Shown: positions 7,763-40,155 of the stretch, piece after piece
Layout: every line of letters begins with the position of its first letter
Position numbering within the stretch: the stretch's first letter is position 1
Assembly: GCA_019931245.1 (NCBI GenBank)
Contig: JAINDL010000169.1
Location: 1-40,155 of the forward strand
Length of the DNA: 40,155 nt
Direction: 5' to 3'
Origin: Bryobacteraceae bacterium CoA2 C42
Lineage (GTDB): Bacteria; Acidobacteriota; Terriglobia; Bryobacterales; Bryobacteraceae
The notes under the pieces: generated by a model
The model's input: the letters and a program-made list of their open reading frames with translations, nothing else
The model's database searches: none
What the model was told of the DNA's origin: nothing
Position numbers and translations under genes: made by a program

Positions 7763-9904
7763 ATGCTGCCGCTGTTCTGCCTGGCCCTTTTGCCCCCCCT
7801 CGAAGGCCTGGTAACCGACGCCCTAACCGGCGAGCGCCTCGCCAACGTCCGCCTCGAACTCCCCAACGGCACCTCCACCACTACCAACCGCGAAGGCACC
7901 TTCCGCCTCGACGCCGAACCCGGCCTCACCCTCCGCGTCACCCTCGTCGGCTATCGCCCGGAACGCATCCTCCTCACCGAGGCCCCCGCCCTCGAAATCC
8001 GCCTCACCCCCGACAACCTCACCCGCCGCGACAACCTCACCGTCTCCGCCGACCCCTTCGAAGCCAGCCTCACCGGCAGCGAACTCAAAAACCTCGCCAG
8101 CGTCCTCGCCGACGATCCCCTCCGCTCCGTCCAATCCCTCCCCGGCGTCGCCGCCAACAACGACTTCAACTCCCAGTTCTCCCTCCGCGGCGCACCCTTC
8201 CGCCAAATCGGCATCTTCATCGATGGCATCCTCCTCCGCAACCCCTTCCACGCCGTCCCCAACGAACCCTCCTCCGGCTCCCTCACCATCTTCAACGGCG
8301 ACCTCATCGAAACCCTCACTCTCCACTCCTCCGCGCCCCCCGTCAGCCTCTCCGACCGCTCGGCCGGCGCCCTCGCCGTCCAACTCCGCGAAGGCTCCCG
8401 CCTACGCCCCACCGTCCGCCTCACCGCCGGCGCCGCCGGGGCCGGCGCCCTCGCCGAAGGCCCGCTCAACCGCTCCCGCACCGCCTCCTGGCTCCTCGGC
8501 GTTCGCAAAAGCTACCTCCAGTACCTCCTCTCCCGCGCCACCACCGATCCCACCCTCGCCTTCGACTTCTTCGATACCCAGGGCAAACTCGCCTGGTCCC
8601 CCACCCCCCAACAAACCCTTTCCCTCAGCTTCTTCGACGGCCTCTCCGGCCTCGACCGCTCCGCCGCCCGCCCCCGCCTCGGCGTCAACGCCATCCTCGA
8701 CAGCGCCTACCGCTCCACCCTCCTGAACCTCGCCTGGCAGTACCGCCCCAACACCCGCTTCCTCACCACCCAGCGCCTCGCCTACCTCCGCGAACGCGCC
8801 GAAAACCGCAACCCCCAACTCCTGCCCCTCGCCCGCACCTACGGCGGCGAATGGGTCTGGCGCGGAGACGCCACCTATAAGTCCCTCCAGTTCGGCGGCT
8901 CCCTCCGCCGCCTCCGCGACGAAGGCGCCTTCACCCGCTACCAGTTCAACCCCTTCGCCGTCCGCCCCCTCGACGCCTACCGCGGCACCGCCCTCCGCTC
9001 CGGCGCCTACCTCGAACAAGCCGCCTCCTACCAACAGCTCCGCCTCACCGCCGGCGCCCGCTTCGACCAACTCCACTCCACCGCCGTCTCCCCCTACGCC
9101 TCCCTCGCCTGGCAGCTCCGCCCCGCCTCCAAACTCTCCGCCACCCTCGCCCAGGCCGCCCAGTTCCCCACCTTCTTCGAAGGTATCCGCCTCCTGCCCG
9201 CCCGCGCCCACCACTTCGTCGCCGCCTTCGAACAGCTCTTCGGCGAACGTACCCGCCTCCGCCTCGAAACCTATCAGCGCTGGGACCGCGACCTCCCCTT
9301 CCGCCCTTTCGAAGAGCCCCGGCTGCTCGCCTCCGGACAGATCTTCAACCCACCCCTGCTCCCGCCCTTCCGCAACTCGCAGCGCGCTCACAGCCGTGGC
9401 CTCGAACTCACCCTCCAGCGCCGCTCCGCCAACCGCCTCAACGGCTGGGTCAGCTACGCCTACGGTCGCGCCACCGTCCGCGACGGCGCCCTCGGCCTCA
9501 CCTTCCCCGCCGACTTCGACCAGCGCCACACCGTCAATCTCTACGGCTCCTACCGCCTCCGCCCGTCCGTCAACCTCAGCAGCCGCTACTCCTACGGCAG
9601 TAACTTCCCCGTCGCCGGCTTCTTCCGCCAGGCATCCCCCACCACTTACTTCCTCGCCCCCCAGCGCAACGGCCTCCGCCTAACCGCCTACCATCGCGCC
9701 GACCTTCGCCTCAACAAGTCCTTTACCTGGCGCCACTGGCGCGGCACCCTCTTCCTCGAAGTCCAAAACCTCACCAACGCCCGCAACCTCCGCCTCGATA
9801 GCTACAACGGCTACAACGCCCGCACCGGCCAGGCCTTTCTCAGCTTCAATCCCCTCTTTCCCATCCTCCCCGCCGCCGGCGTCATGTTCGAATGGGAGCG
9901 CTAA
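7763..9904 (+). CDS. TonB-dependent receptor with carboxypeptidase-regulatory domain
   Basis: 713 residues. A very short signal peptide (LPLFCLALLPP) leads straight into a carboxypeptidase-regulatory-like domain at about 14-85 (LEGLVTDALTGERLANVRL). A plug domain follows at about 110-215, with the SVQSLPGVAANNDF and FSLRGAP motifs, then a barrel to the C-terminus. It is shorter than the Oar-type receptor upstream and a different subfamily, nearer to classical TonB receptors. The last residues are FEWER rather than a terminal aromatic. No TonB box is obvious. The plus strand is extremely C-rich here (32 C and 11 G in 8101-8160). TAAACT at 7750-7755, seven bases before the ATG and without a ribosome site, suggests leaderless expression. 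Confidence 0.85.
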   Translation: MLPLFCLALLPPLEGLVTDALTGERLANVRLELPNGTSTTTNREGTFRLDAEPGLTLRVTLVGYRPERILLTEAPALEIRLTPDNLTRRDNLTVSADPFEASLTGSELKNLASVLADDPLRSVQSLPGVAANNDFNSQFSLRGAPFRQIGIFIDGILLRNPFHAVPNEPSSGSLTIFNGDLIETLTLHSSAPPVSLSDRSAGALAVQLREGSRLRPTVRLTAGAAGAGALAEGPLNRSRTASWLLGVRKSYLQYLLSRATTDPTLAFDFFDTQGKLAWSPTPQQTLSLSFFDGLSGLDRSAARPRLGVNAILDSAYRSTLLNLAWQYRPNTRFLTTQRLAYLRERAENRNPQLLPLARTYGGEWVWRGDATYKSLQFGGSLRRLRDEGAFTRYQFNPFAVRPLDAYRGTALRSGAYLEQAASYQQLRLTAGARFDQLHSTAVSPYASLAWQLRPASKLSATLAQAAQFPTFFEGIRLLPARAHHFVAAFEQLFGERTRLRLETYQRWDRDLPFRPFEEPRLLASGQIFNPPLLPPFRNSQRAHSRGLELTLQRRSANRLNGWVSYAYGRATVRDGALGLTFPADFDQRHTVNLYGSYRLRPSVNLSSRYSYGSNFPVAGFFRQASPTTYFLAPQRNGLRLTAYHRADLRLNKSFTWRHWRGTLFLEVQNLTNARNLRLDSYNGYNARTGQAFLSFNPLFPILPAAGVMFEWER

Positions 9905-9936
9905 CCGCCTTCTGGAAGGCCCGCCCCAGGGCAGGT

Positions 9937-9945
9937 TGCTATACT
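9937..9945 (+). promoter_or_regulatory. Candidate extended -10 promoter for ybiT
   Basis: TGCTATACT matches an extended -10 element (TGn followed by TATAAT-like). A start about seven bases later would leave a leader of some 13 bases before the ATG at 9965, which contains an AGGTGA ribosome-site-like sequence at 9949-9954. No good -35 box is visible, as is common with extended -10 promoters. Confidence 0.35.
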
Positions 9946-9964
9946 CGCAGGTGAAGACCGCTCC

Positions 9965-11596
9965 ATGATCTCTGTTAGTTCCGTTTCCATGCGCTACGGC
10001 GCCAAAGTCCTTTTTGAAGACGTCACTGTCACGTTCGTGCAGGGACGCCGCTACGGCCTGACCGGCCCCAACGGCGCGGGCAAGTCCACGCTCATGAAGA
10101 TCCTCTCGGGCGAAATCGACGCCCAAAAGGGCACCGTCACTCGCCCCAAGCGCATGTCCGTCCTCAAACAGGACCAGTTCGCCTTCGACGCCTATCGCGT
10201 CATCGACACCGTCATCATGGGCAACGCCCGCCTCTGGAGCGCCCTCGAAGAACGCGAAGTCCTCTACAGCAAAGCTGACATGACCGACGAAGACGGCATC
10301 CGCCTCGGGGAACTCGAAGGCATCGTCGGCGAAGAGGACGGCTACTCGGCCGACTCCGACGCCGCCATCCTCCTCGGCGGCCTCGGCATCCCCGAAGAGC
10401 TCCACGAGCGTAAAATGAGCGAACTCCAGGGCGGCCAGAAAGTCCGCGTCCTCCTCGCCCAGGCCCTCTTCGGCAACCCCGAAGCCCTCCTGCTCGACGA
10501 GCCCACCAACCACCTCGACCTCGACTCCATCCACTGGCTCCAGGACTTCCTCAACAACTTCAAAGGCACCATGATCGTGATCTCCCACGATCGCCACTTC
10601 CTCAACTCCGTCTGCACCCACACCGCCGACATCGACTATCAAACGATCATCGTCTACACCGGCGGCTACGACGACATGGTCATGGCCAAAACCCAGGTCC
10701 GCGCCCGCGTCGAAGCCGACAACGCCCAGCGCGAAAAAAAGATCGCCCAGCTCAACGAGTTCATCTCCCGCTTCAGCGCCGGCACCCGCGCCAGCCAGGT
10801 CCGCAGCCGCGCCAAGGAGGTCGAACGCCTCGAAGTCTCCGACCTCAAGCGCTCCAACATCGCCCGCCCCTTCATCAAGTTCGTCTCGAAGCGCCCCTCC
10901 GGCAAGCACCCGCTCGAAGTCAAGAATCTAACCCGCTCCTACGGCAACCAACTCGTCTTCAAACCCTTCTCCGCCCACGTCACCCGCGGCGAACGCATCG
11001 CCATCCTTGGCCGCAACGGCGCCGGTAAAACCACCCTGCTCCGCGCCCTGCTCGATAACGGCCCCGTCACCTCCGCCAAGGAAAAGGACCTCGCTACCGG
11101 CTCCGGCGAAGTCACCTGGGGACACGAAACCAGCATCGGCTACTTCGCCCAGGATCATAAAGAGTCCATCGACAAAGGCACCACGGCCTTTGAATGGCTC
11201 CACACCTTCGATCCGCAGGCCGCCCGGGAAGAGATCCGCGGCACCCTCGGCCAAATGCTCTTCACCGGCGAAGAAGGCGCCAAGCCTACCCACGCCCTCA
11301 GCGGCGGCGAAGCCGCCCGCCTCATCTTTTGCCGGCTGATGCTTGAAAAGCCCAACGTGCTCGTCTTCGATGAACCCACCAACCACTTGGACCTCGAAGC
11401 CATCAACGCCCTCAACTTCGCCTTCCAGAAGTTCGACGGCACCGTCTTCATCGTCACGCACGACCACGACCTGATCGACGCCGTCGCTACCCGCATCTGG
11501 GCCCTCGACCACAACGAAGTCGAGGATTTCAAAGGACCCTACGAAGAGTACCAGGCGGCCCACGCCGCGTCTACGCCGAGTTCGGGCCGCCGTTAG
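9965..11596 (+). CDS. ybiT: ABC-F family ATPase, YbiT subgroup
   Basis: 543 residues with two ABC ATPase domains and no membrane segments. First Walker A GPNGAGKST at about 34-42, signature LQGGQ, Walker B LLLDEPTNHLD near 175-185. Second Walker A GRNGAGKTT near 349-357, signature LSGGE, Walker B VFDEPTNHLD near 465-475. The N-terminus, the VLKQDQFAFD and DTVIMGNARLW segments and the FISRFSAGTRASQ linker match E. coli YbiT. ABC-F proteins bind the ribosomal E site and modulate translation; YbiT's precise task is not settled. Its 3' end overlaps the convergent SWIM gene by 26 bases. Probably monocistronic. Confidence 0.9.
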   Translation: MISVSSVSMRYGAKVLFEDVTVTFVQGRRYGLTGPNGAGKSTLMKILSGEIDAQKGTVTRPKRMSVLKQDQFAFDAYRVIDTVIMGNARLWSALEEREVLYSKADMTDEDGIRLGELEGIVGEEDGYSADSDAAILLGGLGIPEELHERKMSELQGGQKVRVLLAQALFGNPEALLLDEPTNHLDLDSIHWLQDFLNNFKGTMIVISHDRHFLNSVCTHTADIDYQTIIVYTGGYDDMVMAKTQVRARVEADNAQREKKIAQLNEFISRFSAGTRASQVRSRAKEVERLEVSDLKRSNIARPFIKFVSKRPSGKHPLEVKNLTRSYGNQLVFKPFSAHVTRGERIAILGRNGAGKTTLLRALLDNGPVTSAKEKDLATGSGEVTWGHETSIGYFAQDHKESIDKGTTAFEWLHTFDPQAAREEIRGTLGQMLFTGEEGAKPTHALSGGEAARLIFCRLMLEKPNVLVFDEPTNHLDLEAINALNFAFQKFDGTVFIVTHDHDLIDAVATRIWALDHNEVEDFKGPYEEYQAAHAASTPSSGRR

Positions 11597-12734
11597 AACC
11601 GCTTCCGTTCGCCGCCCCCGGCAACGGCTCACCCAACAGAAACAACACCGCATGCTGCGAAGCCCGCTTATAAACGGGCTCCATGGCGTCGAGCAGCGTC
11701 TTCTGCCCCTGCCAGAAAGGAAACGGCCCCAACCGCCGGGTTAACGCCGCCGAGATCGCCGGCGGCGCCACGTCGCCCATCGCGTCCTCCGGCATCCGCA
11801 CCGCGCCCTTCCAATAGATGTCCGGATCCAACTGCAGAGCCTGCTTCGGCTCCTCGGCCGGCGCCGCATCCTCTTCGTCCCGGTTCGCCTCGGCGTCCAG
11901 CGCCTGCGGCAAGTTCTTCTCAATAATCGCCAGCAGCTTATCGCGCCGCATCCCCCGCATCGTAAACAGCAGAAACGGGTCCCGGTCGAACTCCTCGCCC
12001 AGCAGCAGATACACCGCCGCCAAGTGCTTGCACGGATTCGCCGTATCCGGACACGTGCAGCCCGTCACCAGGTCCTGTTCGTTCTTCGGGTAAAGCGATA
12101 GCCCCAGCTCTTCAAAAATCTCTTCGATGTCGGCCGGCATCTCGCCCGCCAGCAGCGTCGCCGAAAACACGGCCTGCTCGGCCAGCCGCGCACCCACGCG
12201 CGTCCAGTCCTCTTCAGGAATCGCGGCAATGTTGATGTCGACGTCGTAAGGCTTCGGCCGCGACCCGCGCACCCGCGCATGCACATGGCCTTCGTCAATG
12301 GCAATCACCAGCACGTGCCCGCTCTTGGCGTAGTCCCGCCCGCGGTTCAGCCGCGAACCCATCTCGAAGCCTTCGAGCACCTCAATCCAGCGCCGCGCCC
12401 ACCAGTTCTCGCCAAACCGCGAACCCTTGGTCTGCGCCCGAATGCCCCCGCCGCCCGGCGCGCGAAAACCACCCGCCCGCCGCTGCGGACCCCGCCGCCG
12501 ATTCCGGTTGCCTCTCCCGTCCCGGTCGTTCCGATCGTTCCGGTCACTCCGCCGCCCGTTGCCCTCCGGTCCCCGCATCTGCTGCTGCGGGGGAGGAGGC
12601 GCCGCTGCCGCCGGCGGCGCGCTCGCCCCTTCCAATCCCGCCGCCGGCGCCCCGCGCCGCCGGTTGTTAAACTTCCGCCGTCCCCACGATCCCCGGCTTC
12701 CGCTGTTGCCCCCGCCGCCCGGCCGCTTACTCAT
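11571..12734 (-). CDS. SWIM zinc-finger protein with Arg/Gly-rich tail
   Basis: 387 residues. The first ~100 are low-complexity, rich in Gly, Arg, Asn and Pro, with a DRNDRNDRDG repeat and RRG clusters, resembling disordered RNA/DNA-binding tails. A SWIM zinc finger follows near residues 225-237 (CTCPDTANPCKH, the C-x-C-xn-C-x-H pattern). SWIM proteins of this sort are usually encoded next to a SNF2-family helicase and are thought to help it bind nucleic acid. Here the ATG at 12734 lies inside the helicase stop region (ATGAGTAA, 8-base overlap), which decides the start over an in-frame ATG at 12749 and implies coupled translation. The 3' end overlaps ybiT on the other strand. Confidence 0.85.
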   Translation of the reverse strand: MSKRPGGGGNSGSRGSWGRRKFNNRRRGAPAAGLEGASAPPAAAAPPPPQQQMRGPEGNGRRSDRNDRNDRDGRGNRNRRRGPQRRAGGFRAPGGGGIRAQTKGSRFGENWWARRWIEVLEGFEMGSRLNRGRDYAKSGHVLVIAIDEGHVHARVRGSRPKPYDVDINIAAIPEEDWTRVGARLAEQAVFSATLLAGEMPADIEEIFEELGLSLYPKNEQDLVTGCTCPDTANPCKHLAAVYLLLGEEFDRDPFLLFTMRGMRRDKLLAIIEKNLPQALDAEANRDEEDAAPAEEPKQALQLDPDIYWKGAVRMPEDAMGDVAPPAISAALTRRLGPFPFWQGQKTLLDAMEPVYKRASQHAVLFLLGEPLPGAANGSGSNGGPNSA

Positions 12735-23845: not shown

Positions 23846-24660
23846 CGCCGCACCATCTCAATCTGACCCGATTCCACCCGCGCATTCGGCAGCGCCGCCT
23901 TCAGCCGCGCCACCCCCGTCTCCGTCAGCAGCGTGTTCACCACGTTCAACTGCTTCAGCTTCCGCAGGCCAAAAATCCGGTCTATTCCCGCATCAGTAAT
24001 CTTCGCATTCCGCAGGTTCAGCACCTCCAGCTCCGTCATCGTGCCCAGCACCTCCAGGCCCCGGTCGGTGATCGTCACCTGCCACAAGCCGGAGTCGGTC
24101 CGCTGCAGCCCGCCCAGGTCGAGCTCCCGCAGCGTCGGAATCAGCTTCAACGGGCTCAGCCCCACGTCCGTCATCTTGTTCCCGCCATAGGCCACATGCC
24201 GCAACTTCGGCATCGTCGCCAGCAGTTCTACGCCGTTATCGGTAAACAACGCAAACCCCACGTCAATCGACTCGAGCCCCGCGTGCCCCGCCAGGTGCGC
24301 CACGCCCGTGTCGGTCACCTTCGTCCCGCGCATGTTCAGCGTCTGCAGCTTCGGCCACAGCTTCATCACCGCGCACGCCCCGTCGCCCACCAACTCGGCG
24401 TAGTACAGGTTCACCGCCGTCACGTTCCGCAGCTTCTTTAAATGCACAAAACCCAGGTCCGTCACCCGCGTATGGGAAAGATCCAGCGTCCGCAGCTCCG
24501 TAAACGTCCCCACGCGCTGCAGGTCGGAATCGTTCACCCACGTCCGGCTCAGGTCCAGCGCCACAATGCGCCCCTGCGCATCGGCCGTCGCCGTGCCGCC
24601 CACCTCCTTCACCCAATCCATCGGACCCACTACGGCCAGCAGCAACATCGCCGCGAACAT
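23842..24660 (-). CDS. Leucine-rich-repeat protein, small
   Basis: 272 residues. A hydrophobic N-terminus (MFAAMLLLAVVG) could be a signal or anchor. It is followed by a module MDWVKEVGGTATADAQG and then about eight leucine-rich repeats of the bacterial type with the TDxGxxxL pattern, for example RTLDLSHTRVTDLGFVHL and VLNLRNAKITDAGIDRI. Such solenoids bind proteins. The start overlaps the stop of the larger LRR gene as TGATG, with GGAGG eight bases upstream inside that gene. It shares the N-terminal module with both halves of the larger protein and is probably a split or duplicated third unit. Last gene of a five-gene minus-strand run. Confidence 0.85.
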   Translation of the reverse strand: MFAAMLLLAVVGPMDWVKEVGGTATADAQGRIVALDLSRTWVNDSDLQRVGTFTELRTLDLSHTRVTDLGFVHLKKLRNVTAVNLYYAELVGDGACAVMKLWPKLQTLNMRGTKVTDTGVAHLAGHAGLESIDVGFALFTDNGVELLATMPKLRHVAYGGNKMTDVGLSPLKLIPTLRELDLGGLQRTDSGLWQVTITDRGLEVLGTMTELEVLNLRNAKITDAGIDRIFGLRKLKQLNVVNTLLTETGVARLKAALPNARVESGQIEMVRR

Positions 24661-26621
24661 CAGCTTTTCCTCCGGATCGGAATCGACGACTCCCGGTCAA
24701 ACAGAACATGCAGCCCCGGCCGCGCGGCCTTCAGCTTGTTGTAAGCCGCCTCGGTGATCAGCGTATGGTAAATGCCCAGGCTGCGCAGCTTCTCCATCTT
24801 CCCGAGCGTCTCCACGGCCCCGTCCGTCAGGTTCGCCGTATCGAGCAGCAGCTCTTCGAGCTCCGGCAGTTGCAGCGCCTTCAGGCCGGCGTCCGACAGC
24901 CCCGTATAATCCAGGTTCAGCCGCCGCAGCTTGCTGAACTGGTTCAGGTGCGGCACCGCCGCATCGTCCAGACGTGACCGCACCGATTCAAACACCCGCA
25001 GATTCGTCAGCCCTTTCAACTCCGCCAAACCCTTGTTCGTATGCCGGCAGTAGCTCAGGTAAAGCTCCTCGAGCGTGGTCATCTTGCCGATGTGCACCAG
25101 CGCCTCATCGCCCAGGTCGTTCGAGACGATGTCGAGCTTCCGCAGCGGCAGCGCGCTCAACGCCCGCAGGCCGACCTCGGTGATATCCGTGTAGGCCAGC
25201 CGCAGCGCCCGCAAAGTCGGCATCCCGGCCAGCGCCGCCGCGCTGCGGTCATCAAACGTCGTGTTGGCAATCTCCAACTCCTCAATCGGCAGCGCCGCCG
25301 GCAGCATCCCCCGGCTCAGCGTATGGTTCAGCGTCAGCCGCTGCAGCTTGCCCAGACCGCTCAACTGCGCCAGACCCGCATCGGAAACCATCGTGTTCGT
25401 CAGGTCCAGATCCTCGAGCGTCTTCAGCTTGCCGACCTGCGCCATGCCCCCGTCGCCAATCTCCGTCGTATCGAGCCGCAGCTTCCGCAGCGCCGTGAGC
25501 CCGGCCAGATACGCCAGCTGCGCATCGGACACCGGCGTCCGCGAAAGGTCGATCGACCGGATCTTGCCCGCCTCGAGCGAACTCCGCCCGCCCAGCCGTT
25601 CAATCCATCCGGCAATCGCGGTGTCGGTCAGCGCCGCCGGCTTGGCCGTCCGCAGCGCCGGGTCCGCCGCCTGCGGCGCCGCGTCCTGAAACTCCACGCG
25701 CACCCGCGGGTTCACCGCCAGCAGATCGTCCACGCCCCCTCGCGTCACCCGCGTGTAGCGCAGGTCGAGCGACGTCAGATTCTTGAGGCCCCGCAGCTTG
25801 CTCAGCCCCGCGTTGGTAATCTGCGTCCGGTACAGGTTCAGCTCGGTCAGCTCCTGCAGCGGCGCCAGCGCCGCCACCCCTTCGTCCGTCAGCGCCGCGC
25901 CCAGAATGTTCAGCCGCTTCAGCTTCGCAAGGCCCCGCAGCGCGCCGATTCCCCGGTCCGTCAGCCGCAGCCCGAACAGGTCGAGCGTCTCGAGCTCCTG
26001 CAAACCGGCCAGCTGCTGCAAGCCCTCGTCGGTCACGAACGTATCGCGCAGGCTCAGATAGCGAAGTTTCTTCATGCCGGCAATCTGCTTCATGCCCTCG
26101 TCGTTCATCCGCGTGTTGTTCAGGTCCAGCCGCTCCAGGTTCACAAACGGTTCCAGCCCCGCGCCCCGTATGTTCGCCATCGCCACTCGCATTTCGCGAA
26201 TCTGCGTCAGGTTGGCGAACTCCTTCAGCCCCTTGTCCTGCACGTTGATGTGTTCGAGAAAATGCAGCGACAGCCCGAAGCGCTCGAGCTTGGTCAGCGT
26301 CTTCAGCGCGGCCAGCTCTTTGTTGGCGTCCAGGGTCGAACCCGCTCCCGGGTTAAAAATCGTGCCCGGCAGAATCAACTCCCGCAGCTCCGTGCAGCCC
26401 GTCAGCAGCTTCAGATCCCGGTGGTCGACAATGGTCCCGGCCAGGTCCACGCCCTCGAGGCGCAGCGCCCCCGCCGGCAGCTTCTCCGCCGCGGTGAGCC
26501 AGGCCGAATCCGCCATCCGCACCCGCCCGCCAAACCGCAGCGCCCACTCCGCCGTCGCGCGGTCATCGCTCTGCGCCCACACCGCCCCGGCGCCCCACAG
26601 AAGAAAGGTTAAAATTCGCAC
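24660..26621 (-). CDS. Large leucine-rich-repeat protein, two solenoids
   Basis: 653 residues from GTG 26621, preceded by AGGA at suitable spacing. A signal peptide (RILTFLLWGAGAVWAQ) indicates export. Two LRR blocks follow, each opened by a similar module: ATAEWALRFGGRVRM near residues 23-37 and AIAGWIERLGGRSSL about 320 residues later. The joint is an Ala/Pro-rich linker (AAPQAADPALRTAKPAA). Repeats have the TDEGxxxLxxLxxL pattern of bacterial LRR proteins. A protein-binding role outside the cytoplasm is inferred. It is coupled by TGATG to the small LRR gene and follows the glycosyltransferase by 26 bases. Confidence 0.87.
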   Translation of the reverse strand: MRILTFLLWGAGAVWAQSDDRATAEWALRFGGRVRMADSAWLTAAEKLPAGALRLEGVDLAGTIVDHRDLKLLTGCTELRELILPGTIFNPGAGSTLDANKELAALKTLTKLERFGLSLHFLEHINVQDKGLKEFANLTQIREMRVAMANIRGAGLEPFVNLERLDLNNTRMNDEGMKQIAGMKKLRYLSLRDTFVTDEGLQQLAGLQELETLDLFGLRLTDRGIGALRGLAKLKRLNILGAALTDEGVAALAPLQELTELNLYRTQITNAGLSKLRGLKNLTSLDLRYTRVTRGGVDDLLAVNPRVRVEFQDAAPQAADPALRTAKPAALTDTAIAGWIERLGGRSSLEAGKIRSIDLSRTPVSDAQLAYLAGLTALRKLRLDTTEIGDGGMAQVGKLKTLEDLDLTNTMVSDAGLAQLSGLGKLQRLTLNHTLSRGMLPAALPIEELEIANTTFDDRSAAALAGMPTLRALRLAYTDITEVGLRALSALPLRKLDIVSNDLGDEALVHIGKMTTLEELYLSYCRHTNKGLAELKGLTNLRVFESVRSRLDDAAVPHLNQFSKLRRLNLDYTGLSDAGLKALQLPELEELLLDTANLTDGAVETLGKMEKLRSLGIYHTLITEAAYNKLKAARPGLHVLFDRESSIPIRRKS

Positions 26622-30261: not shown

Positions 30262-30612
30262 TCAGGATAGCGCCGCCAGCAGCAACCGGCGCGTCAACGG
30301 CTTCGTCAGATAGCCCGTAAACCCCGCCGCCAGCCCGCGCTGCTCGTCACCCTCCATCGCCGAAGCCGTCACGGCATAAATGGCTACCCCCGCCAGCGCC
30401 GGCACCGCCCGCAGCCGCCGCAGCGTCTCGTACCCATTGAGCCCCGGCATCTGGATATCCAGCAGAATCAGCTCCGGCGGCCGTGCCGTCGCCATCTCGA
30501 CCGCGGTTAACCCGTCCCGTGCCTCCTCCACCGTCCAACCCTCGTGCGACAGCATCGTCCGCAACAGCTCCCGGTTGCTCGCGCTGTCATCCGCAATCAG
30601 TACCCGCCGCAT
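30262..30612 (-). CDS. Single-domain response regulator
   Basis: 116 residues, a receiver domain only. The acidic pocket is in LIADDS (D8-D9), the phospho-acceptor is the Asp of LLDIQMPG near residue 52, the Thr/Ser position is AVTASAM and the Lys is in YLTKPL. There is no output domain, so it works like CheY or as a phosphotransfer intermediate. Its ATG follows the kinase stop directly, with a GAGGAGGAG ribosome site inside the kinase's last codons, so it is probably phosphorylated by, or takes phosphate from, that kinase. Confidence 0.9.
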   Translation of the reverse strand: MRRVLIADDSASNRELLRTMLSHEGWTVEEARDGLTAVEMATARPPELILLDIQMPGLNGYETLRRLRAVPALAGVAIYAVTASAMEGDEQRGLAAGFTGYLTKPLTRRLLLAALS

Positions 30613-32403
30613 CTACTCCTCCTCCCGGCCCAACGCCCGCCGCAGCGTCCGCACCAGCAAATCCCGCGCCACCGGCTTGGTCAGCGACGCAAACGCCCCC
30701 CGCTCAAGCGCCGACTCGTCCGCCGCCACCGACGTCACCAACACCGGAATATCCCGCGTCTCTTCGAGCTTCTTCAACCCCGCCAGCGCGTCCCAGCCGC
30801 TCCCCTGCGGCAGATAAAGGTCCAGCACAATCACGTCCGGATGCAGGTCGAGCGCCTTCACAAGACTCTCCCGCACCGTCGCCGCCGCCACCAGCGCCAT
30901 GCCCTCGGCCTCGAGATACTCGCGCAGCAGCGCCAGCGCCGAAGGGTCGTCCTCCAGCGCCAAAACGAGCGGCTGACTCCGCCGCGCCATCGCCGCCGCC
31001 AGCGGCAGCGTAAACACAAAACGGCTGCCGCCCCCGGCGGCCTCCTCCATCCAGATCCGCCCCCCCTGCCGCTCCACCAGCCGCCGCGCGATCGCCAATC
31101 CCAAGCCGGTCCCCGCCGCCCCTAGCCCCTGAAAAAACGCCTCGAAAATCCGCTCCCGCAACTCCGGCGGCACCCCCACCCCGGTATCCACCACCCCAAT
31201 CGTCCCAAACCCCCCGGCCGACCTGCCCTCCACCGCCACCCGCCCCCCGGCGTTTGTAAACTTCACCGCATTCGTCAGCAGATTCAACAGCACCTGCTTC
31301 GACCGCAACCGGTCCCCCGCCAGCCGCAAGTCCCGCTCCAGTTGCACGTCCAGCGCTATCTCCTTGGCCTCGGCCTGCGGCCGCACCATCGCCACGGCCT
31401 CTTCGATCCACTCCCGCGCGGTGAACTCCTCCACCCGCAGCTCCATCCGTCCGGCCTCAATCTTGCTCAGGTCCAGAATGTCGTTGATCAACGTGAGCAG
31501 GTGCTGCGAATCGCGCTGGATATGCGCGGCAAACCGCTTCTGCTTGTCGTTCAGAGGCCCTTCGAGCTCATCCGCCAGCAGCTCGGCGAATCCGATGATC
31601 GTATGCAGCGGCGACCGCAACTCATGACTCATGCTCGCGAGAAACTCGCTCTTGGCCTGGCTCGCCTGCTCGGCCCGCAGCCGCGCCTCTTCAATGGCCT
31701 CCTGAAAGCGCCGCTGCGCGGAGACGTCCTGCACCACCAGCAGCCGCGCCGGCCGGCCCAGATACGGCAGGTCATGCGATCGGACCTCGTAGTCGGCCTC
31801 CCACAACGGCGCGAGCCCCGCCACCCCCAGCGCCAGAAACTCCTCCCGGCTCACCCGGAACGCCCGTAGCGCCTCCCGGTTCACCGCCAGCAGCGCGCCC
31901 GTGGCCGGGTCCTCTACCCACGATGCCAGCGGACACTCCTCAAACAACAGCCGCGCCTGCGCCTCGCTCTCCTGCATCGCCGCCAACAGGTTCATCCGCT
32001 CGGAAACATCCCGCACCACGGCCGCCGTATGCACCGCCTCGCCCACCTGCAGCGGGCTCAGCATGATCTCCACCGGGAACTCTCGGCCATCCTTTCGCAC
32101 CGCCTGAAAGTAAGATCCGCTGCCCATCGACCGTGTTACCGGCGCCGCACTATATCCCAATCGCTTCTGTTCGTGCCCGGCCCGCACCGCCGCCGGCGTC
32201 AGTATCTCAATCCGCTGCCCGATCAGCTCCTGCCGCGTGTAACCAAACATCCGCTCGCAGCTCCGGTTCACTAAGACGATCACCCCGCGAGCGTCCACTT
32301 CAATTACGGCATCCGGCGCGGCCTCAAGCAGCGCTGCTTCTTTACTGTTAGTCGCACGATCAGCAGGATTCAACAATTGCAATGATCTCCAGTTCAAGTC
32401 CAC
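30613..32403 (-). CDS. Hybrid sensor histidine kinase with PAS domain
   Basis: About 596 residues with no membrane segment. Order: PAS at about 20-135 (PDAVIEVDARGVIVLVN, FGYTRQELIG), a second PAS-like domain at about 145-235, HisKA with phospho-accepting H260 (SHELRSPLHTIIGF), HATPase with NLLTNAVKF, DTGVGVP and GTGLGLAIA, and a C-terminal receiver with phospho-acceptor D528 (VLDLYLPQGSGWD). It would sense a cytoplasmic signal. The start is uncertain: GTG 32403 gives the longest form but lies only 23 bases from the divergent regulator; TTG codons at 32382 and 32376 follow a GGAG and could be used. It is cotranscribed with the single receiver protein. Confidence 0.9.
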   Translation of the reverse strand: MDLNWRSLQLLNPADRATNSKEAALLEAAPDAVIEVDARGVIVLVNRSCERMFGYTRQELIGQRIEILTPAAVRAGHEQKRLGYSAAPVTRSMGSGSYFQAVRKDGREFPVEIMLSPLQVGEAVHTAAVVRDVSERMNLLAAMQESEAQARLLFEECPLASWVEDPATGALLAVNREALRAFRVSREEFLALGVAGLAPLWEADYEVRSHDLPYLGRPARLLVVQDVSAQRRFQEAIEEARLRAEQASQAKSEFLASMSHELRSPLHTIIGFAELLADELEGPLNDKQKRFAAHIQRDSQHLLTLINDILDLSKIEAGRMELRVEEFTAREWIEEAVAMVRPQAEAKEIALDVQLERDLRLAGDRLRSKQVLLNLLTNAVKFTNAGGRVAVEGRSAGGFGTIGVVDTGVGVPPELRERIFEAFFQGLGAAGTGLGLAIARRLVERQGGRIWMEEAAGGGSRFVFTLPLAAAMARRSQPLVLALEDDPSALALLREYLEAEGMALVAAATVRESLVKALDLHPDVIVLDLYLPQGSGWDALAGLKKLEETRDIPVLVTSVAADESALERGAFASLTKPVARDLLVRTLRRALGREEE

Positions 32404-32426
32404 AGCAAACTAAGGGCCAGCGTACA

Positions 32427-33808
<1,382 letters not shown>

Positions 33809-33812
<4 letters not shown>

Positions 33813-35671
33813 CGGCCCAGCCGCAGCCCAATCGTAATCTGTTGCACCCCAAACGCCTCATTGGCGTAGAACGCCTGCCCCATCGACACCTGCCGCCACT
33901 CCCCCAATAGCTGCACCTGCTTCCGCACCGGCACGAGCAGCCGCGCCAGCGGCTGATAGTACCGCGTCGGCCGCGAACCCGCCGAACGAAACAGGCTCCC
34001 ACCCACCGTCACCGACCCCCGGCTCTTCGGCCAGTTCCACGTCGCCGCCAGCGCCGCCGTATGGGCGTTATCCCGGTACAGGCTTCGCAGCGGCGCGTAC
34101 CGTTCCGGATCCAAAAACACGAGATCATTCCATAGCGTCGACCGCGCATAGTCCGCCGTCACCGATCCCGTCCGCCTGGTCCACTGCACCGACGCCCCCG
34201 CCTGCTGCGCCGCAAACCGCAGGTTCACCCCCGGCGTCGGGTTCCCGTTCGCCGTCCGGTGGTAGTGCCCGCTCGCCTGCCAGCCATCGGCCATCCGGTA
34301 GCGCGCCCGCACGCGCACCCGCTCGTAATTCTGCAGACTCGTCCGGAAGTATGTCCGGTCCCCGCGCCCCACCTCCGCGTTCGCGTTCAACGTCAGCCGC
34401 GCCGCCGGCCGCAGCACGAAACCAGCCAACCCCACGTGCCGGCGCAGCAGCCCCGCCTCCTGCGCCGGCCCCGTCGACAGCGTCCCCCGCCGCACCCCCG
34501 CATCGCCCCACAGGTACCGGTGCCCCCCCTGCAGCGTCAAAAACTTCGCAACGTCTACCCAAGCCTGCACCTGCTGCTCACTCTCGTTCCACACGAGACG
34601 ATCCCCCTCGCTCCGCCCCGGCAGCGCTCTCTGGTCCAGCGTCGTCAACCCCGTCAGTGACGCCGCGTTATGCATCCGCGTCGTCTGCCACGATTCCAGA
34701 ATCCGCACCCGGCTCCACGGCCGCACCTCCACGCTCCCCGCCCCTGACGTCCGCGGCTGGTTGGCGTAGCCCGTCACGAGCGACTGCTGCCCGCTCACGA
34801 ACCGCAGCGTCTCGAGCCACAATAGCGTGCCCTGCGCGTTCTCGCTGAAGCGTACGTCGCTGTTCGGCTGCGAGTAGAAAAACTGCCCCGTCACATCCAC
34901 CCACCGCCACGGCGACACCGTCACCTCGGCCGACGAGTACACGTTCTGCCCGGTCACGGCATAGGCCTGCGTCGCGCGGTCGAGCGCCAGGCGCCGGCCG
35001 AAGTACGGCAGCAGCCGGTTGCCCGTATTGCGCTCCTCAATGCGCAGCGCCGTGTCGTCGTGAAAACGGCCGCCGCCCTGTTCGAGCGTGAAGCGCCACC
35101 GTTCGGTGTCGTAGTGCACCCCGCCGCGAAACTGCAGATAGCCGTTATCGATCACCGACGCCGCCGGGTAGCTGTTCTCGTCCACCACAATCGGGCTCAC
35201 CCCGAACCCGTTGCTCGACTGCCGGCCCACACTCAAAAACGGCTGCAGCCGCTTGCCCGGCCGCAGATCGAGGTCCGCGTTCCACAGCCGCTGCCGCGTA
35301 TCGAACGACCGCTGGCTGAACGCATTCAGCGGGTTGGCGAACGAGGGCAGGGCATTGAAGTAGGCCATGTTGCGATAGCCGAACGTGAACCGGTACAGCC
35401 CCGCTTTGTCCATCGTCAGGTGCAGAGCGTTCATCGGGTCGCCCCACCCGGAACCCGTCACCCGCAGCGCGTCCAGTCCCCGGCTCCCGGCCGGCGTCCA
35501 GGCCCCGGCAAACTGCAGAAACCGCGGCCCCTCGGCCAGATTGTCCACGCTCCGGTAGCTCTTCCAGTCGCCCCGTGTCGAAGGCAGCGCCCGGTAGCCC
35601 ACCTCGGTGGTCACCTCCGGCGCCTGCCCCCACACCACCATCGGAATCGCCAGCCACAGCGCCCGTCTCAT
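33809..35671 (-). CDS. MtrB/PioB-like outer-membrane beta-barrel
   Basis: 620 residues with signal peptide (ALWLAIPMVVWGQ) and alternating polar/aromatic strands to the C-terminus (FGVQQITIGLRLGR). SVDNLAEGPRF, GSGWGDPMNALH and YRNMAYFNALPSFANP match the acidobacterial barrel family encoded beside multihaem cytochromes. As the porin sheath of a porin-cytochrome conduit it would house the decahaem protein encoded just upstream. It has no cysteine, so it lacks the N-terminal CxxC of Shewanella MtrB. ATG 35671 overlaps the preceding cytochrome stop as ATGA; the frame runs 48 bases further upstream. Confidence 0.8.
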
Positions 35672-36570
35672 CGCAGAAAGTCCCGGTTGACGTGCGAGCC
35701 ATGGATCTTCGTATGGCACGTGGTGCAGTTGCGATAGAGCGGCAGCCGCAGGTCATGCGTCCCCGGCGCTACCGCACCCAGCGTGCCCGTCCGGTTGCCC
35801 GGCGCCGGCAGGTTCGCGTGGCACTCGAGACACAGGTTCATCACCTCCGCCCGGTTCAACATCCGCGGGTTCGCCGACCCGTGCGGCTCGTGGCAGCTCC
35901 CGCAGCCCTCCAGCCGCATCGGCGCATGTTCAAACGCAAACGGCCCCCGCTTGTCGGCGTGACAATTCAGGCATCCCGGCTCATTGTTCCGCGTCCGCGC
36001 CGTCCCCCGCAGCCCCGCCCGCTCGAGTGAACCGTGCGGGTTGTGGCAGTCGACGCACTCGACCGTACCCCGCGTGATGCGGTGCGCGTGCGGCCGCAGG
36101 AACTGCGCCACCACGTCCGTATGGCAGCCGCCGCACGTGGCCGCCGCGTGCGGCTTCTCCTGATGCACCCCGTGGCAGCTCCCGCAGCCCACCTGCCCCG
36201 CGCTATGCGAGCCGTGCACCCGGCCCGCGTGCGTCGCCTGGTTCTTGTGGCATCCCAGGCACGACGCGTCGGCCTCCTTCGGCGTTGCCTTGGCGTGGTT
36301 CAGAATGAACTTCGCCTCGGCCGCCTCGCCATGCTTCTGCCCCGGCCCGTGGCAAGCCTCGCACGAATAATCCTTCCAGCCCTGCCCGGCCTCCCGCTCC
36401 AAGGCGCCGTGCCGCGTCTTGGCGTACCCTTTGCCCTGCTCCTCATGGCAAGCCACGCAAGCCTCCGTCCCGGCGTAGCCCTCCGCCGCCCGGTCCTTCT
36501 TCTTCTGCGGCGGAGCGGCCAGCAGCCCGCCCCAGCACACCAGCAACAGCAGGCCCGCCTCAGCGCGCAT
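35668..36570 (-). CDS. MtrA/DmsE-type decahaem c-type cytochrome
   Basis: 300 residues with a signal peptide and exactly ten CxxCH motifs, at about 38, 70, 104, 129, 146, 172, 200, 223, 247 and 282. Spacing, HNPHGS, CHEPHGS and the C-terminal CTTCHTKIHGSHVNRDFLR fit the DmsE/MtrA family, the periplasm-side haem wire that threads the outer-membrane barrel. It would pass electrons from periplasmic or inner-membrane donors to the surface cytochrome. The ATG lies within the last codons of the upstream decahaem gene (11-base overlap), and its stop overlaps the barrel start, so the three would be made together. Confidence 0.93.
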   Translation of the reverse strand: MRAEAGLLLLVCWGGLLAAPPQKKKDRAAEGYAGTEACVACHEEQGKGYAKTRHGALEREAGQGWKDYSCEACHGPGQKHGEAAEAKFILNHAKATPKEADASCLGCHKNQATHAGRVHGSHSAGQVGCGSCHGVHQEKPHAAATCGGCHTDVVAQFLRPHAHRITRGTVECVDCHNPHGSLERAGLRGTARTRNNEPGCLNCHADKRGPFAFEHAPMRLEGCGSCHEPHGSANPRMLNRAEVMNLCLECHANLPAPGNRTGTLGAVAPGTHDLRLPLYRNCTTCHTKIHGSHVNRDFLR

Positions 36571-38581
36571 GAGACTTCGCCACCGAAAACGCCGCGTTCG
36601 GCCCGTGACAAACGTTGCAGCTCTCGCCCAGCGACGAAGTGGTCAACTGCACGTGCGCCGCGGCATCTTTCGAACTGTGGCAGGACAAACACGCCGCCCC
36701 CGCCGGACCCGGATTCGGCAACCACCCCCGTGGGTCCACCACATTCAGCAGATTCGGCGCCAGCGGCAGCCGCTCCGTGTTGTTCACATGACACATGGCG
36801 CAGTTCCGCGCATCGGCCGGCAGCGCCACTTTGCTGTAGTCGTTGGCCGCTCCGCCGAAGCCGTAAATCACATAGGGCCGGCCCTGCGTCGCGCCCGTGT
36901 GCAGCCGGTGAATCATCGTCGAAAAGTTCACGCTCTCGGCGGGCATCTGCGCCGGGGTCCGCCGCGCCGCGTCCGTCAGGTTCGGGTTGTGGCAATCCAC
37001 GCAGTGCTCAATCTGATTCCGATTCCGCCCGTGCGCCTCGAGGTCGGCATGGCAGGCGTTGCACTTGGCAAGCGACACAATCGTCCGCCGCGGCTCGGCC
37101 GCCTTGCCCTCCACGCTGAAATACTTCGTCACGTTCTGCAGCGTGTCCCGCACCGTCACCGGCTGCCGCCCTGGCCCCTCGAACGTCACGTTCCGGTAGC
37201 CTTCGACGGCAATCGAGTAGCTCCCCGTCGCCCCGGCCGGAATCGCACGCGCAAAGCGGTGCGTGGCCGCGCCGCCGGGGCTCGGTGGATCCGTGCGCCC
37301 GCTCTCGGACCAATACGCCGCGTAGTCCGCCGTCGGCCCCGCCAGCACGAAGGAAAGCGAGTTCAGCTCCCCCGGCGTCAGCAGCTTCCCTTCGCCATCC
37401 CGCAGCCGGTAGCTGATCGCCGGCTGTTGCCCGGCGTTCGTATCCCGGATCTCCAGAATCTCTATGGCAATCCCCTTCAAATTCCGTGATTTCTCCGGCC
37501 GCGTGTGCGCACCCTCAATCGACAGATCCCACTCCCGTTCCCCCGCCGGCCGGTGGCACTGCGCGCAGCGCGAATCGTCCAACTGCACCGGATGCCCCTT
37601 GCCCGCCGCGAAATCGATATCGTCGTGGCAAGACCCGCACCCCGCCTGCGACGGCTGGTACATCGCCCGCGCCTGCGCCCCCGCGTTTGGCCCCTCCTGC
37701 ACATGGCAGGCCGCGCAGTTCCGGTTGTTCGCCGGAAAGCCCACGTGCGAATAGTCCGTCTCCCGCTGGCCATTGCCAATCAGCGAATACTTCCCGCCCG
37801 CCTGGACGCTCGGCAGCTCCCGGCCCATGTGAATCTTGTGCGTCATCACGGTCATGTCCACCGTGTTGCCCGTGTCCGGATCCACCGTCTGCGGCGTGTG
37901 GCAGAGCACACACATCGCCATGCCCCGCCGCGCGCCCCCGTGCGCGGCAATCTCGGTGTGGCAACCGTTACAGCTCTCCGTCCGGATCACATCCCGCACC
38001 TTCGTCACCGCGCCCCCCGCCGGCACAAAGTGAAACACGGTGCTCGCATAGCTTACCCCCAGTTCAAACTCGTTCAGGTTGCGGCTCCCGTAGACGCCAA
38101 TGGTATGCGTCGCCGTCCGGTCAAATCCGCCCGGCGCCCTGGTCCGAAAGGTGTAACGATACGCGCCCTCGCCCAACGCCGTAAACGTCCCGCCGGAATC
38201 CGCCGCCGCCTGCGTGGCCGATACCCCCGTCAACGGGCTCCGCTGCACCCGCGTCGTGTACGCCGCGTAGTGCTTGTTGTCCGCGGGAATCGTTGCCGCC
38301 ACAAAACTCAACCCCACCGCCCCCGGCGTCAATCGTCCCTCCCGGTCAAGCGGCACCCCCAGCGGGTCTGTAATCCGCACCGTCGCCACCATTGTCCCGT
38401 CGGCCCCAATCTCGGCCCCCAACACCCGCAGCTCCAGCCCCGGCCGCACAAAGTTCAGCGTCCGCTCGTTCGCGTAAAAAGCCTTCTGCTCTGGCGTAAA
38501 TCCAAAGCGCCGCACCCCCTCCCCCAGACCCACCGCCGCCACCAGGCCGCCCGCCAACCATAACCAGACTCCCCGCCTCAT
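36560..38581 (-). CDS. OmcA/MtrC-type decahaem c-type cytochrome
   Basis: About 673 residues with ten CxxCH motifs in two groups of five: near 206, 226, 291, 317 and 341, then near 509, 529, 596, 633 and 657 (counted from GTG 38587). Each pentahaem group is preceded by a beta domain, giving the four-domain plan of MtrC and OmcA, the surface terminal reductases. The N-terminal helix (VWLWLAGGLVAAVGLG) has no lipobox cysteine, unlike Shewanella MtrC, so its attachment differs. ATG 38581 is preferred: GGAGG lies six bases upstream; GTG 38587 overlaps the previous stop but leaves no spacing for a ribosome site. Confidence 0.92.
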   Translation of the reverse strand: MRRGVWLWLAGGLVAAVGLGEGVRRFGFTPEQKAFYANERTLNFVRPGLELRVLGAEIGADGTMVATVRITDPLGVPLDREGRLTPGAVGLSFVAATIPADNKHYAAYTTRVQRSPLTGVSATQAAADSGGTFTALGEGAYRYTFRTRAPGGFDRTATHTIGVYGSRNLNEFELGVSYASTVFHFVPAGGAVTKVRDVIRTESCNGCHTEIAAHGGARRGMAMCVLCHTPQTVDPDTGNTVDMTVMTHKIHMGRELPSVQAGGKYSLIGNGQRETDYSHVGFPANNRNCAACHVQEGPNAGAQARAMYQPSQAGCGSCHDDIDFAAGKGHPVQLDDSRCAQCHRPAGEREWDLSIEGAHTRPEKSRNLKGIAIEILEIRDTNAGQQPAISYRLRDGEGKLLTPGELNSLSFVLAGPTADYAAYWSESGRTDPPSPGGAATHRFARAIPAGATGSYSIAVEGYRNVTFEGPGRQPVTVRDTLQNVTKYFSVEGKAAEPRRTIVSLAKCNACHADLEAHGRNRNQIEHCVDCHNPNLTDAARRTPAQMPAESVNFSTMIHRLHTGATQGRPYVIYGFGGAANDYSKVALPADARNCAMCHVNNTERLPLAPNLLNVVDPRGWLPNPGPAGAACLSCHSSKDAAAHVQLTTSSLGESCNVCHGPNAAFSVAKSHAR

Positions 38582-38583
38582 CC

Positions 38584-39942
38584 TCACCCTCCCAACTCCT
38601 GCAGGCTCGCCAGATTCTTCTCCTCGACGCCCAACACCTTATGGCAGCTCTCGCAGTCCTGCGTCATCGTTTGGCCGGACTTCGTCTTCAGCTCTTCGTT
38701 ATGGCACCGGAAACAGCCCGGCGAATCCGTATGCCCGTCGTGCCGCGGGTAGCTGCCCCAGGTCAACTTCATCTCCGGATACACATTCTGCTGATACAAA
38801 GCCACCAAACGCCCTCCCGCCCGCTCAAGCTCGGTCCGGTGCAGCACCATGGCATCCGGCGCGTTCTGCTTATAGTAAGCCAGCAGCGCCGCCGGAATCT
38901 GTTCAGCCGCCGCCTCGCGGCTGGCGTACCCCTTGGCCAACACCGCCAGCGCCGCCCGCCGAAACTGCGGCACCTTCTGCGGCAACACCCCGGCCGTCAT
39001 CTCGCGGTCCACCGCCCGCTCCGCCGTCTCAAACGCATGCGCCGGCCGGTTGTGGCAGTCCAGGCAATCCATCTCCCGCTCAAATCCGCCGCTCCCCGCG
39101 CCCCCATACGTCTCCCCGCCCTCCACCCGCACCGCCATCATCGCCTTCCGCCCCGCATCCGCCGCCCGGTAAACAATCCGCCGCCCCCGGCCCAGGTGCG
39201 CCCCGTGAATCCGCCCAACCTTCATCATCAACGCCGTATCAAGCCGCTCCCCCGCATCGTCAAACCGGCTCCGCCGCCACAGCCGGTCGCCGTAATCATG
39301 CGCCCGGTTGTGGCAGTTCTCGCACGTCTCCGCTGAACTCTTCAGCCCATGCGGAGGCGACGGCACCGGCCGGCTGTAGCGATTCGTCAGCAACAAAAAC
39401 AGCTGCCGCGTCCCGTTCCACTTGGCCGCAATCTTCGCCCCCGCCCCCTCACCCACGTGGCAATCCACGCATCGCACCTGCCCGTGCGCCCCACCAGCCA
39501 GATGCGCCGCATACTCCGGACCCATCACCTGATGGCAAGCCGTCCCGCAAAAGTTCGTCGTCTCCATGTACCGCACCGTCCGGTAGCTCAACGCCCCGCC
39601 CACCACCACGTTGAACCCCGTCGCCACCGCCAGAAAAACCAGCAGCCGCTGAATTCGCGGGTTTCCCCATTCAATCCTCGCCGGCAGATGCAGATGATGA
39701 TCCGGCGCCTCACGCCGTCGCTGCAGACTGATCCCCACCGGCACCAGCGCCAACCCCGCGAAAAACAGTACCGGCAGCGCCACAAACTGCAGGATTCCCA
39801 AATACCCCGACGCCTCACTCGCCCCCGTCAGAAAGATCCACAGCACCACCGCCGACATCACCAGCCACAGCCCCACCCGGCTGATCCAATGATCCGTCAG
39901 GTAGAAAACCGGCAAAATCCAGCGACGCGTGAACCGTCCCAT
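38584..39942 (-). CDS. NapC/NirT-type membrane cytochrome, six haem motifs
   Basis: 452 residues. Three hydrophobic segments (about 25-41, 49-71 and 100-119) precede the haem domain, where NapC and CymA have a single anchor. Haem sites: CGTACH at 132-137 (C-x3-C-H), CVDCH near 158, CENCH near 207, CLDCH, CFRCH and CESCH, six in all. NapC-family proteins oxidise membrane quinol and pass electrons to periplasmic partners. It would be the entry point of the conduit encoded downstream. AAGGAG, ten bases before the ATG, lies in the end of the preceding cytochrome gene. Confidence 0.9.
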   Translation of the reverse strand: MGRFTRRWILPVFYLTDHWISRVGLWLVMSAVVLWIFLTGASEASGYLGILQFVALPVLFFAGLALVPVGISLQRRREAPDHHLHLPARIEWGNPRIQRLLVFLAVATGFNVVVGGALSYRTVRYMETTNFCGTACHQVMGPEYAAHLAGGAHGQVRCVDCHVGEGAGAKIAAKWNGTRQLFLLLTNRYSRPVPSPPHGLKSSAETCENCHNRAHDYGDRLWRRSRFDDAGERLDTALMMKVGRIHGAHLGRGRRIVYRAADAGRKAMMAVRVEGGETYGGAGSGGFEREMDCLDCHNRPAHAFETAERAVDREMTAGVLPQKVPQFRRAALAVLAKGYASREAAAEQIPAALLAYYKQNAPDAMVLHRTELERAGGRLVALYQQNVYPEMKLTWGSYPRHDGHTDSPGCFRCHNEELKTKSGQTMTQDCESCHKVLGVEEKNLASLQELGG

Positions 39943-39949
39943 CGACCGC

Positions 39950-40155
39950 CTACTCCTTCAAGGTCCGCAGAAAAGCCACCAGATTCGCCGCCTCCGCCTC
40001 CGCCAATGCGGCCCCCTTCATCTTCCCCACCCCTTCCACCGACTCCTTCCGCAACTGCGCGTCCGGCTTCGCCTGCACCTCCTTCGAACCGAGATGCCGC
40101 ATCTCCACCTTCAGCATCTTCGCAATCGCGCCATTGGCCGCCCCGTCCGCCCCGT
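39950..40155 (-). CDS. Monohaem c-type cytochrome, C-terminal part
   Basis: Sixty-seven codons at the window edge, ending at a stop seven bases before the NapC-type gene. The frame begins with GADGAANGAIAKMLK, which normally directly follows the CxxCH of a class I cytochrome c (the haem site itself lies outside the window). It continues with LRKESVEGVGKMKG, whose Met is the likely axial ligand, and ends with ANLVAFLRTLKE, the usual C-terminal helix. Probably a small periplasmic electron carrier. It is the first visible gene of the electron-transfer operon, and others may lie beyond the edge. Confidence 0.8.
   Translation of the reverse strand, partial: GADGAANGAIAKMLKVEMRHLGSKEVQAKPDAQLRKESVEGVGKMKGAALAEAEAANLVAFLRTLKE

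Follow-up and report, generated by a model that had tools for sequence, protein, structure and literature searches.

An ImcH-type cytochrome gene joined to mtrCAB in a single operon of a Bryobacteraceae bacterium: a predicted route from the quinone pool across the outer membrane

We analysed a stretch of 40,155 nucleotides from Bryobacteraceae bacterium CoA2 C42 (GenBank assembly GCA_019931245.1, contig JAINDL010000169.1), hereafter the window, and focused on an operon of multihaem cytochrome genes at its right end. This single operon is likely to encode a complete extracellular electron transfer chain of the MtrCAB type, in which an ImcH-type quinol oxidase replaces CymA, electrons flow outward and expression is switched by sigma-54 and an NtrC-type regulator. 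Computation established gene content and order, their conservation, membership of the MtrC, MtrA and NapC-domain families, the fold of the barrel and a set of conserved elements upstream. The MtrCAB conduit is a known kind of system; what appears new, as far as the available text of two surveys and of openly licensed PMC papers (supplements excluded) shows, is the combination of ImcH and MtrCAB in one acidobacterial operon with a sigma-54-like promoter.

The window is the whole of contig C137 in an assembly of 6.07 Mb and 237 contigs that is 97.7% complete, so that absences from this genome are no proof. From the right end inwards, five minus-strand genes encode a monohaem cytochrome c, the ImcH-type cytochrome, MtrC, MtrA and MtrB (Table 1). 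An earlier note, made from this sequence alone, had claimed a tight single operon, and this was confirmed on the minus strand at the same coordinates, with one 7-bp gap and overlaps of 4, 11 and 4 bp. The monohaem stop codon (39950–39952) lies 7 bp from the imcH-type ATG at 39942; the stop of the imcH-type gene and the GTG start of mtrC share 4 bp (38587/38584; alternative mtrC ATG at 38581), mtrC overlaps mtrA by 11 bp (36570/36560), and mtrA and mtrB overlap in an ATGA. Contig C34 opens with exactly the 141 bp that close the window and carries a divergent amidohydrolase gene beyond the monohaem start. At least 26 haem motifs had been claimed, and the window was found to hold 26 (25 CX2CH and one CX3CH): five CX2CH and the CX3CH in the ImcH-type protein, ten motifs in MtrC and ten in MtrA. 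The operon total rises to 27 because C34 carries the start of the monohaem gene, with its CKRCH motif. A chance origin of these motifs is untenable because of the family scores given below. Unbroken five-gene stretches were present in the relatives L037, L038, L039 and L040.

The second gene had been read in the earlier note as a NapC-type quinol oxidase and compared with CymA. The NapC domain stood (PF03264, 36.1 against a cut-off of 24.1), and the gene was the sole match to this NapC/NirT family in its own genome. The likeness to CymA did not stand, and identity with CymA was rejected: CymA has one helix and four (some five) motifs, whereas the window protein has three helices, a CX3CH and six motifs in all. 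Its hydropathy segments lay at residues 23–41, 53–71 and 97–115, a low-confidence model (predicted local distance difference test score, pLDDT, 66.6) placed helices at 19–38, 46–77 and 95–126, and the CX3CH lies at position 132, next to the membrane domain. We aligned the window protein with 20 relatives, without the cut or split genes of L056, L060 and L068. The results showed that the CX3CH columns were invariant and the five CX2CH present in 21/21 sequences, while at least three hydropathy segments were found in 20 of the 21 (L082 has two). The hallmarks described for ImcH are three transmembrane helices with an adjacent, atypical CX3CH, plus 5–9 CX2CH (Zhong and Shi 2018, PMC6295460). Likened to ImcH by these published features and not by alignment, the membrane cytochrome appears better described as ImcH-type than as CymA-like. 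The NapC/NirT model TIGR02161 gave 19.6 bits against a cut-off of 310.6, and the model was too weak for its fold matches to be informative: only three NrfH chains among the 50 matches listed exceeded a probability of 0.9, all with E >0.1. The futalosine menaquinone gene MqnC scored above its cut-off in the same genome, so menaquinone synthesis is likely; a CcmF-like protein reached 432 bits, under its cut-off of 569.

MtrC matched TIGR03507 with 459 bits (cut-off 209) over residues 62–673. Its haem motifs are arranged 5+5, at 206–341 and 509–657, as two pentahaem domains; its PDB matches were MtrF, OmcA and MtrC, and it was the only match to this protein in its own genome. MtrA matched PDB chain 6r2q_A with E 1.2e-35 (this chain carries a wrong molecule name in the PDB sequence table used). 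The barrel stayed under the cut-offs by sequence (PF11854, 21 vs 23 bits; TIGR03509, 21 vs 240), and sequence searches against PDB chains returned nothing relevant. We aligned 51 barrels of at least 600 aa, the window's included, and built a model on them; 15 of the 51 matched PF11854 at E ≤0.01. The model (mean pLDDT 86.9, predicted template-modelling score 0.74) folds as a single large beta barrel in which 28 strand segments were counted, compared to 26 strands for MtrB in the solved complex (PMC7198977). In the fold search, 6r2q_B, the MtrB of the Mtr complex, was the first of 806 matches (E 8.3e-12, TM 0.69/0.65), so that the part of the structural check in the earlier note that concerns the barrel itself favours its MtrB-like barrel, which on this model is predicted to be MtrB-type by fold. 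A TonB-type receptor was considered and rejected: such receptors ranked behind MtrB, with query-normalised TM of about 0.4–0.53 among the 50 matches listed, and the model begins with a strand and has no plug-sized N-terminal domain. These family scores and PDB matches support an mtrCAB-type conduit together with an inner-membrane cytochrome in one acidobacterial operon, as had been claimed.

We scanned a species-genome collection with the MtrC alignment; of 134 confirmed places the best 80 were retained, corresponding to 79 loci. Among these 79, all were labelled acidobacterial except one Acidimicrobiia. The labels of the closest relatives disagree on the order (Acidobacteriaceae, Acidobacteriales, Candidatus Sulfopaludibacter and Bryobacteraceae, with Acidobacteria and Bryobacter as further labels); the operon clade probably belongs to Bryobacterales. 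The genes mtrC, mtrA and mtrB stood on one strand in 54/79 loci, and 23 of these 54 had an ImcH-type gene in their fetched flanks (18 on the same strand) compared to 0/25 of the others; these counts are not independent, as the operon loci form one clade, and flank lengths differ. The exact five-gene order was found in 11/79 loci, and two more were cut by contig ends. Three of these 13 operon loci had one gene in two frames (mtrC in L090, mtrA in L060, the imcH-type gene in L068), probably through assembly errors. In an MtrC tree of 54 sequences (53 loci and the window, L090 being excluded for its split mtrC), the window and 12 operon relatives formed one clade (13/13 rows, support 100/99). The other loci with an ImcH-type gene near mtrCAB formed two label groups, each with five rows and three changes against the other labelled rows; 31 of the 54 tree rows were in no label group. 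Clustering of the two groups was weak, 22 and 24 of 500 shuffles being as low, and the linkage may reflect one gain with losses.

Further arrangements were seen among these loci. L106, L107, L067 and L100 carry ImcH-type, monohaem and mtrCAB genes plus a tetrahaem gene like that of the acidobacterial Group 5 of Baker et al. 2022, in other orders, which suggests rearrangement. In L092, L093, L094, L095, L096, L097, L102, L109 and L121, mtrC occurs without mtrA or mtrB, in tandem in three loci; their surroundings encode large proteins (mostly about 760–1010 aa) that bear two haem motifs, and no ImcH-type gene was found in the flanks. Close to mtrCAB in L082, a 1076-aa open frame with 19 CX2CH runs from position 13271 onward.

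The region upstream of the first gene was then compared among 12 operon members. A strict sigma-54-like site (TGG-N8-TTGCW) was present in 11/12; in ten of them it precedes the start codon by 28–32 bp, and L063, whose start codon is probably miscalled, has it at −75. The background was 39/2400 dinucleotide-shuffled regions and 0.009 per 180 bp over all loci. In 9 of those 11 members the sigma-54-like site is preceded at 55–58 bp by a palindrome-like element of 16 bp (consensus TGGGKNATWTGNCGCA), and a second, usually weaker copy lies 21–23 bp further out in 9/12 regions. The pattern TGGGNNAWWTGNCSCA occurred twice in the window's own genome, once at the operon, and a reversed control pattern gave 0; the second match, inside a long open frame, was discounted. 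A palindrome score of at least 12 of 14 was reached in 12/12 regions compared to 10/1200 shuffles, a score that is partly circular because its consensus was drawn from the regions scored, so that the fixed spacing and the genomic rarity are the better support. In 63 other loci, the 310-bp stretch around the mtrC start held a sigma-54-like match in 8 and a palindrome score of at least 13 in 1. The operon leader that this promoter implies is very short, which is odd. An NtrC-type regulator adjoins mtrB in 7/13 related operon loci, and it is presumed to bind the palindrome elements.

In the proposed chain, the three-helix hexahaem ImcH-type protein would oxidise menaquinol in the inner membrane and pass electrons to MtrA, either straight or by way of the monohaem cytochrome c. 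Electrons would cross the outer membrane through MtrA held within the MtrB barrel, and MtrC would hand them to an external acceptor of high potential (Fe(III), Mn(IV), humics or the like). Transcription would depend on sigma-54 and be turned on by the NtrC-type regulator together with the PAS kinase adjoining mtrB. Within this scheme we infer that the complex assembles and that MtrC is exposed at the surface, as well as the direction of flow, the acceptor and the link from regulator to operator. The route from quinone to cell surface that the earlier note had drawn holds for its genes, while surface exposure of MtrC can only be presumed given its missing lipobox, described below.

Several results weigh against this chain. 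The promoter and the monohaem start sit on a second contig that is joined to the window by the 141-bp overlap only, in an assembly of many contigs. No ImcH-type gene was found in the fetched flank of 31/54 mtrCAB loci, and no NtrC-type regulator in the flanks of 6/13 operon loci, some of these flanks being short or contig-cut. The regulatory pattern has exceptions: L065 lacks the spacing, L063 has its palindrome at 66 bp and L061 lacks a strict sigma-54 match. A canonical lipobox ([LVI][ASTVIG][GAS]C) near the N terminus was found in 0/82 MtrC frames longer than 550 aa, with near misses in L056 and L057 (AAGC) and in L044, L047 and L048 (LLGC), the start codons being guesses. No GspD scored above the type II secretion system cut-off in the window's own genome, where five weaker secretin matches are present. 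Finally, the monohaem protein looks by its sequence like a His/Met class-I cytochrome (its intact relative in L037 scored 35 bits with PF00034, cut-off 21.3), and such a protein could be too positive for outward electron passage; MtoD of Sideroxydans has a potential of +155 mV (PMC13390432).

An alternative is a chain that works in the opposite direction: Fe(II) or another donor outside the cell would be oxidised, and the monohaem protein would deliver electrons to a terminal oxidase or into the quinone pool, following the proposal for the Mto system of Sideroxydans. A haem chain is reversible in principle, and the Sideroxydans cluster likewise joins a decahaem cytochrome and barrel with the CymA-like ImoA and monohaem cytochromes, of which PmcA is proposed as a bridge between ImoA and MtoA (PMC13390432); mtoC and mtoD also stand beside mtrCAB in betaproteobacteria (Baker et al. 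2022, PMC8805035). However, the Gallionella and Sideroxydans loci are described as lacking MtrC (PMC8805035), and no match to RuBisCO, the only CO2-fixation route tested, was found in the window's own genome, compared to matches in 5/14 control genomes. We consider electron uptake unlikely.

The features of MtrC bear on two further explanations. Besides the lipobox, a CX8C pair was found in 0/82 MtrC frames; some non-haem cysteine occurs in 27/82, and the window MtrC has none. In Shewanella MtrC, the CX8C redox disulfide limits flavin reduction in air (PMC9973256). Because the lipobox is missing, Shewanella-style lipid anchoring is not predicted, and MtrC may be a secreted protein that only the barrel retains. 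It might instead be the terminal, possibly loosely attached reductase of a system dedicated to a soluble compound (for example iodate or dimethyl sulfoxide) or to humic quinones. Without lipobox and CX8C flavin switch its mineral and flavin chemistry need not match that of Shewanella, and the family model matched by MtrA is named for DmsE; yet no catalytic subunit was found in the five-gene operon or among the nine proteins scanned, which were not every frame of the window, and the match of MtrC to OmcA/MtrC is strong, so that a dedicated reductase is very improbable. It is still harder to credit that MtrC is periplasmic or sits on the inner membrane, with the genes serving periplasmic respiration. 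The missing lipobox and the lack of a GspD above the cut-off would fit this; however, no hydropathy segment exceeded the threshold in the window MtrC, for which no inner-membrane anchor is therefore predicted, and MtrA/MtrB pairs are known trans-outer-membrane conduits (PMC7198977).

The outward ImcH–MtrCAB chain is thus the explanation we prefer. A wider proposal, which we advance only tentatively, is that a probable Bryobacterales clade with its own quinone entry carries a self-contained, sigma-54-switched ImcH–MtrCAB module for high-potential extracellular respiration, that an ImcH-type gene was linked to mtrCAB more than once, and that MtrC relies on the barrel for attachment, having neither a lipid anchor nor the oxygen-protecting disulfide of Shewanella. 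Repeated linkage is permitted, not proven, by the MtrC tree.

Table 1. Operon genes and adjoining regulatory genes in the window.
Feature	Position	Strand	Remarks
Monohaem class-I cytochrome c, C-terminal part, presumed periplasmic shuttle	39950..40155	-	Gene start and CKRCH on contig C34 (L004, ATG at 250, minus strand)
ImcH-type inner-membrane quinol:cytochrome oxidoreductase (predicted), 452 aa	38584..39942	-	Three N-terminal helices, CX3CH and five CX2CH
OmcA/MtrC-family decahaem cytochrome, 675 aa, without lipobox or CX8C	36560..38587	-	TIGR03507; PDB matches
MtrA/DmsE-family decahaem cytochrome, 300 aa	35668..36570	-	TIGR03508, 219.6 bits, cut-off 192.2
MtrB-type outer-membrane beta barrel	33809..35671	-	ATG 35671 overlapping mtrA stop; fold match, sequence match under cut-offs
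NtrC-type response regulator with sigma-54 interaction domain, convergent with mtrB, presumed operon activator	32382..33812	+	PF00158, PF00072 and PF02954 above cut-offs
PAS hybrid histidine kinase, presumed regulator partner	30613..32403	-	Kept beside regulator in L056, L057, L058, L059 and L064
Stand-alone receiver domain, same block as kinase	30262..30612	-	Membership inferred from adjacency only

A second MtrA/DmsE decahaem cytochrome (240 bits) is encoded in the same genome on contig C170:15071–15865 (L142, about 8720–11829), near murA. Its neighbour is an MtrB-like barrel with 125 bits to our local profile and no NCBIfam match, and no MtrC or ImcH-type gene was found in the 20-kb stretch examined around the pair, which may form a further conduit across the outer membrane. 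On contig C180, a weak DNA match was discarded, no haem protein being present there. Elsewhere in the window (24660–26621, minus strand), a 653-aa leucine-rich-repeat protein (PF13516 and others) is encoded, in a bacterium.

The decahaem genes of Acidobacteria, a group described as dominant in soils, have been read as a hint that these bacteria respire iron (PMC3669403). In the available text of the 2018 and 2022 surveys, the exit from the quinone pool towards acidobacterial MtrCAB was left open, and the operon offers a concrete, testable answer. The five-gene unit with its putative promoter could be transferred to a laboratory host.

We compared the operon with known systems. Shewanella MtrCAB shares the C-A-B gene order, and the window proteins match all three 6r2q chains. 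In contrast, Shewanella uses CymA where the window operon contains a three-helix hexahaem ImcH-type protein, it uses FccA/CctA where the window has a monohaem protein (PMC8805035), and the lipobox and CX8C hallmarks of its MtrC are missing from the window MtrC. The earlier note had opposed the operon to the separately encoded CymA of Shewanella; this is true but too narrow, as a quinone oxidoreductase inside mtrCAB clusters is already known (PMC8805035). According to the same survey (Baker et al. 2022), almost every group has one or more members with a CymA homologue in their mtrCAB cluster, the exception being the acidobacterial Group 5, which comprises Acidobacteriia, unclassified or Bryobacterales, and is described as having no putative quinone oxidoreductase nearby. 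Group 5 shares the mtrCAB core with the window operon, whose relatives are labelled largely alike. It differs in a tetrahaem gene described downstream of mtrB, which the window clade lacks, having monohaem and ImcH-type genes upstream; downstream of the window mtrB, the convergent regulator stands instead.

Among inner-membrane quinone enzymes, Geobacter ImcH, compared by its described features only, shares with the window protein three helices, an adjacent CX3CH and a NapC-like core. It has six CX2CH compared to five in the window protein, within the published homologue range, and the window gene is joined to mtrCAB, whereas the available text of the 2018 survey reports no mtrAB or mtoAB adjacent to imcH (PMC6295460). 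The Mto systems of Sideroxydans and Gallionella likewise place an inner-membrane cytochrome, a monohaem cytochrome, a decahaem cytochrome and a barrel in one cluster, but as described their quinone enzyme is CymA-like (ImoA) or CbcL-like (MtoC), MtrC is missing and they are tied to Fe(II) oxidation. In Rhodoferax ferrireducens, quinone enzymes (cymA, mtrH) are also encoded with mtrABC (PMC6295460), although these belong to other families and the organism to another phylum. The operon thus suggests a natural combination of elements from the two best studied models, ImcH of Geobacter and MtrCAB of Shewanella.

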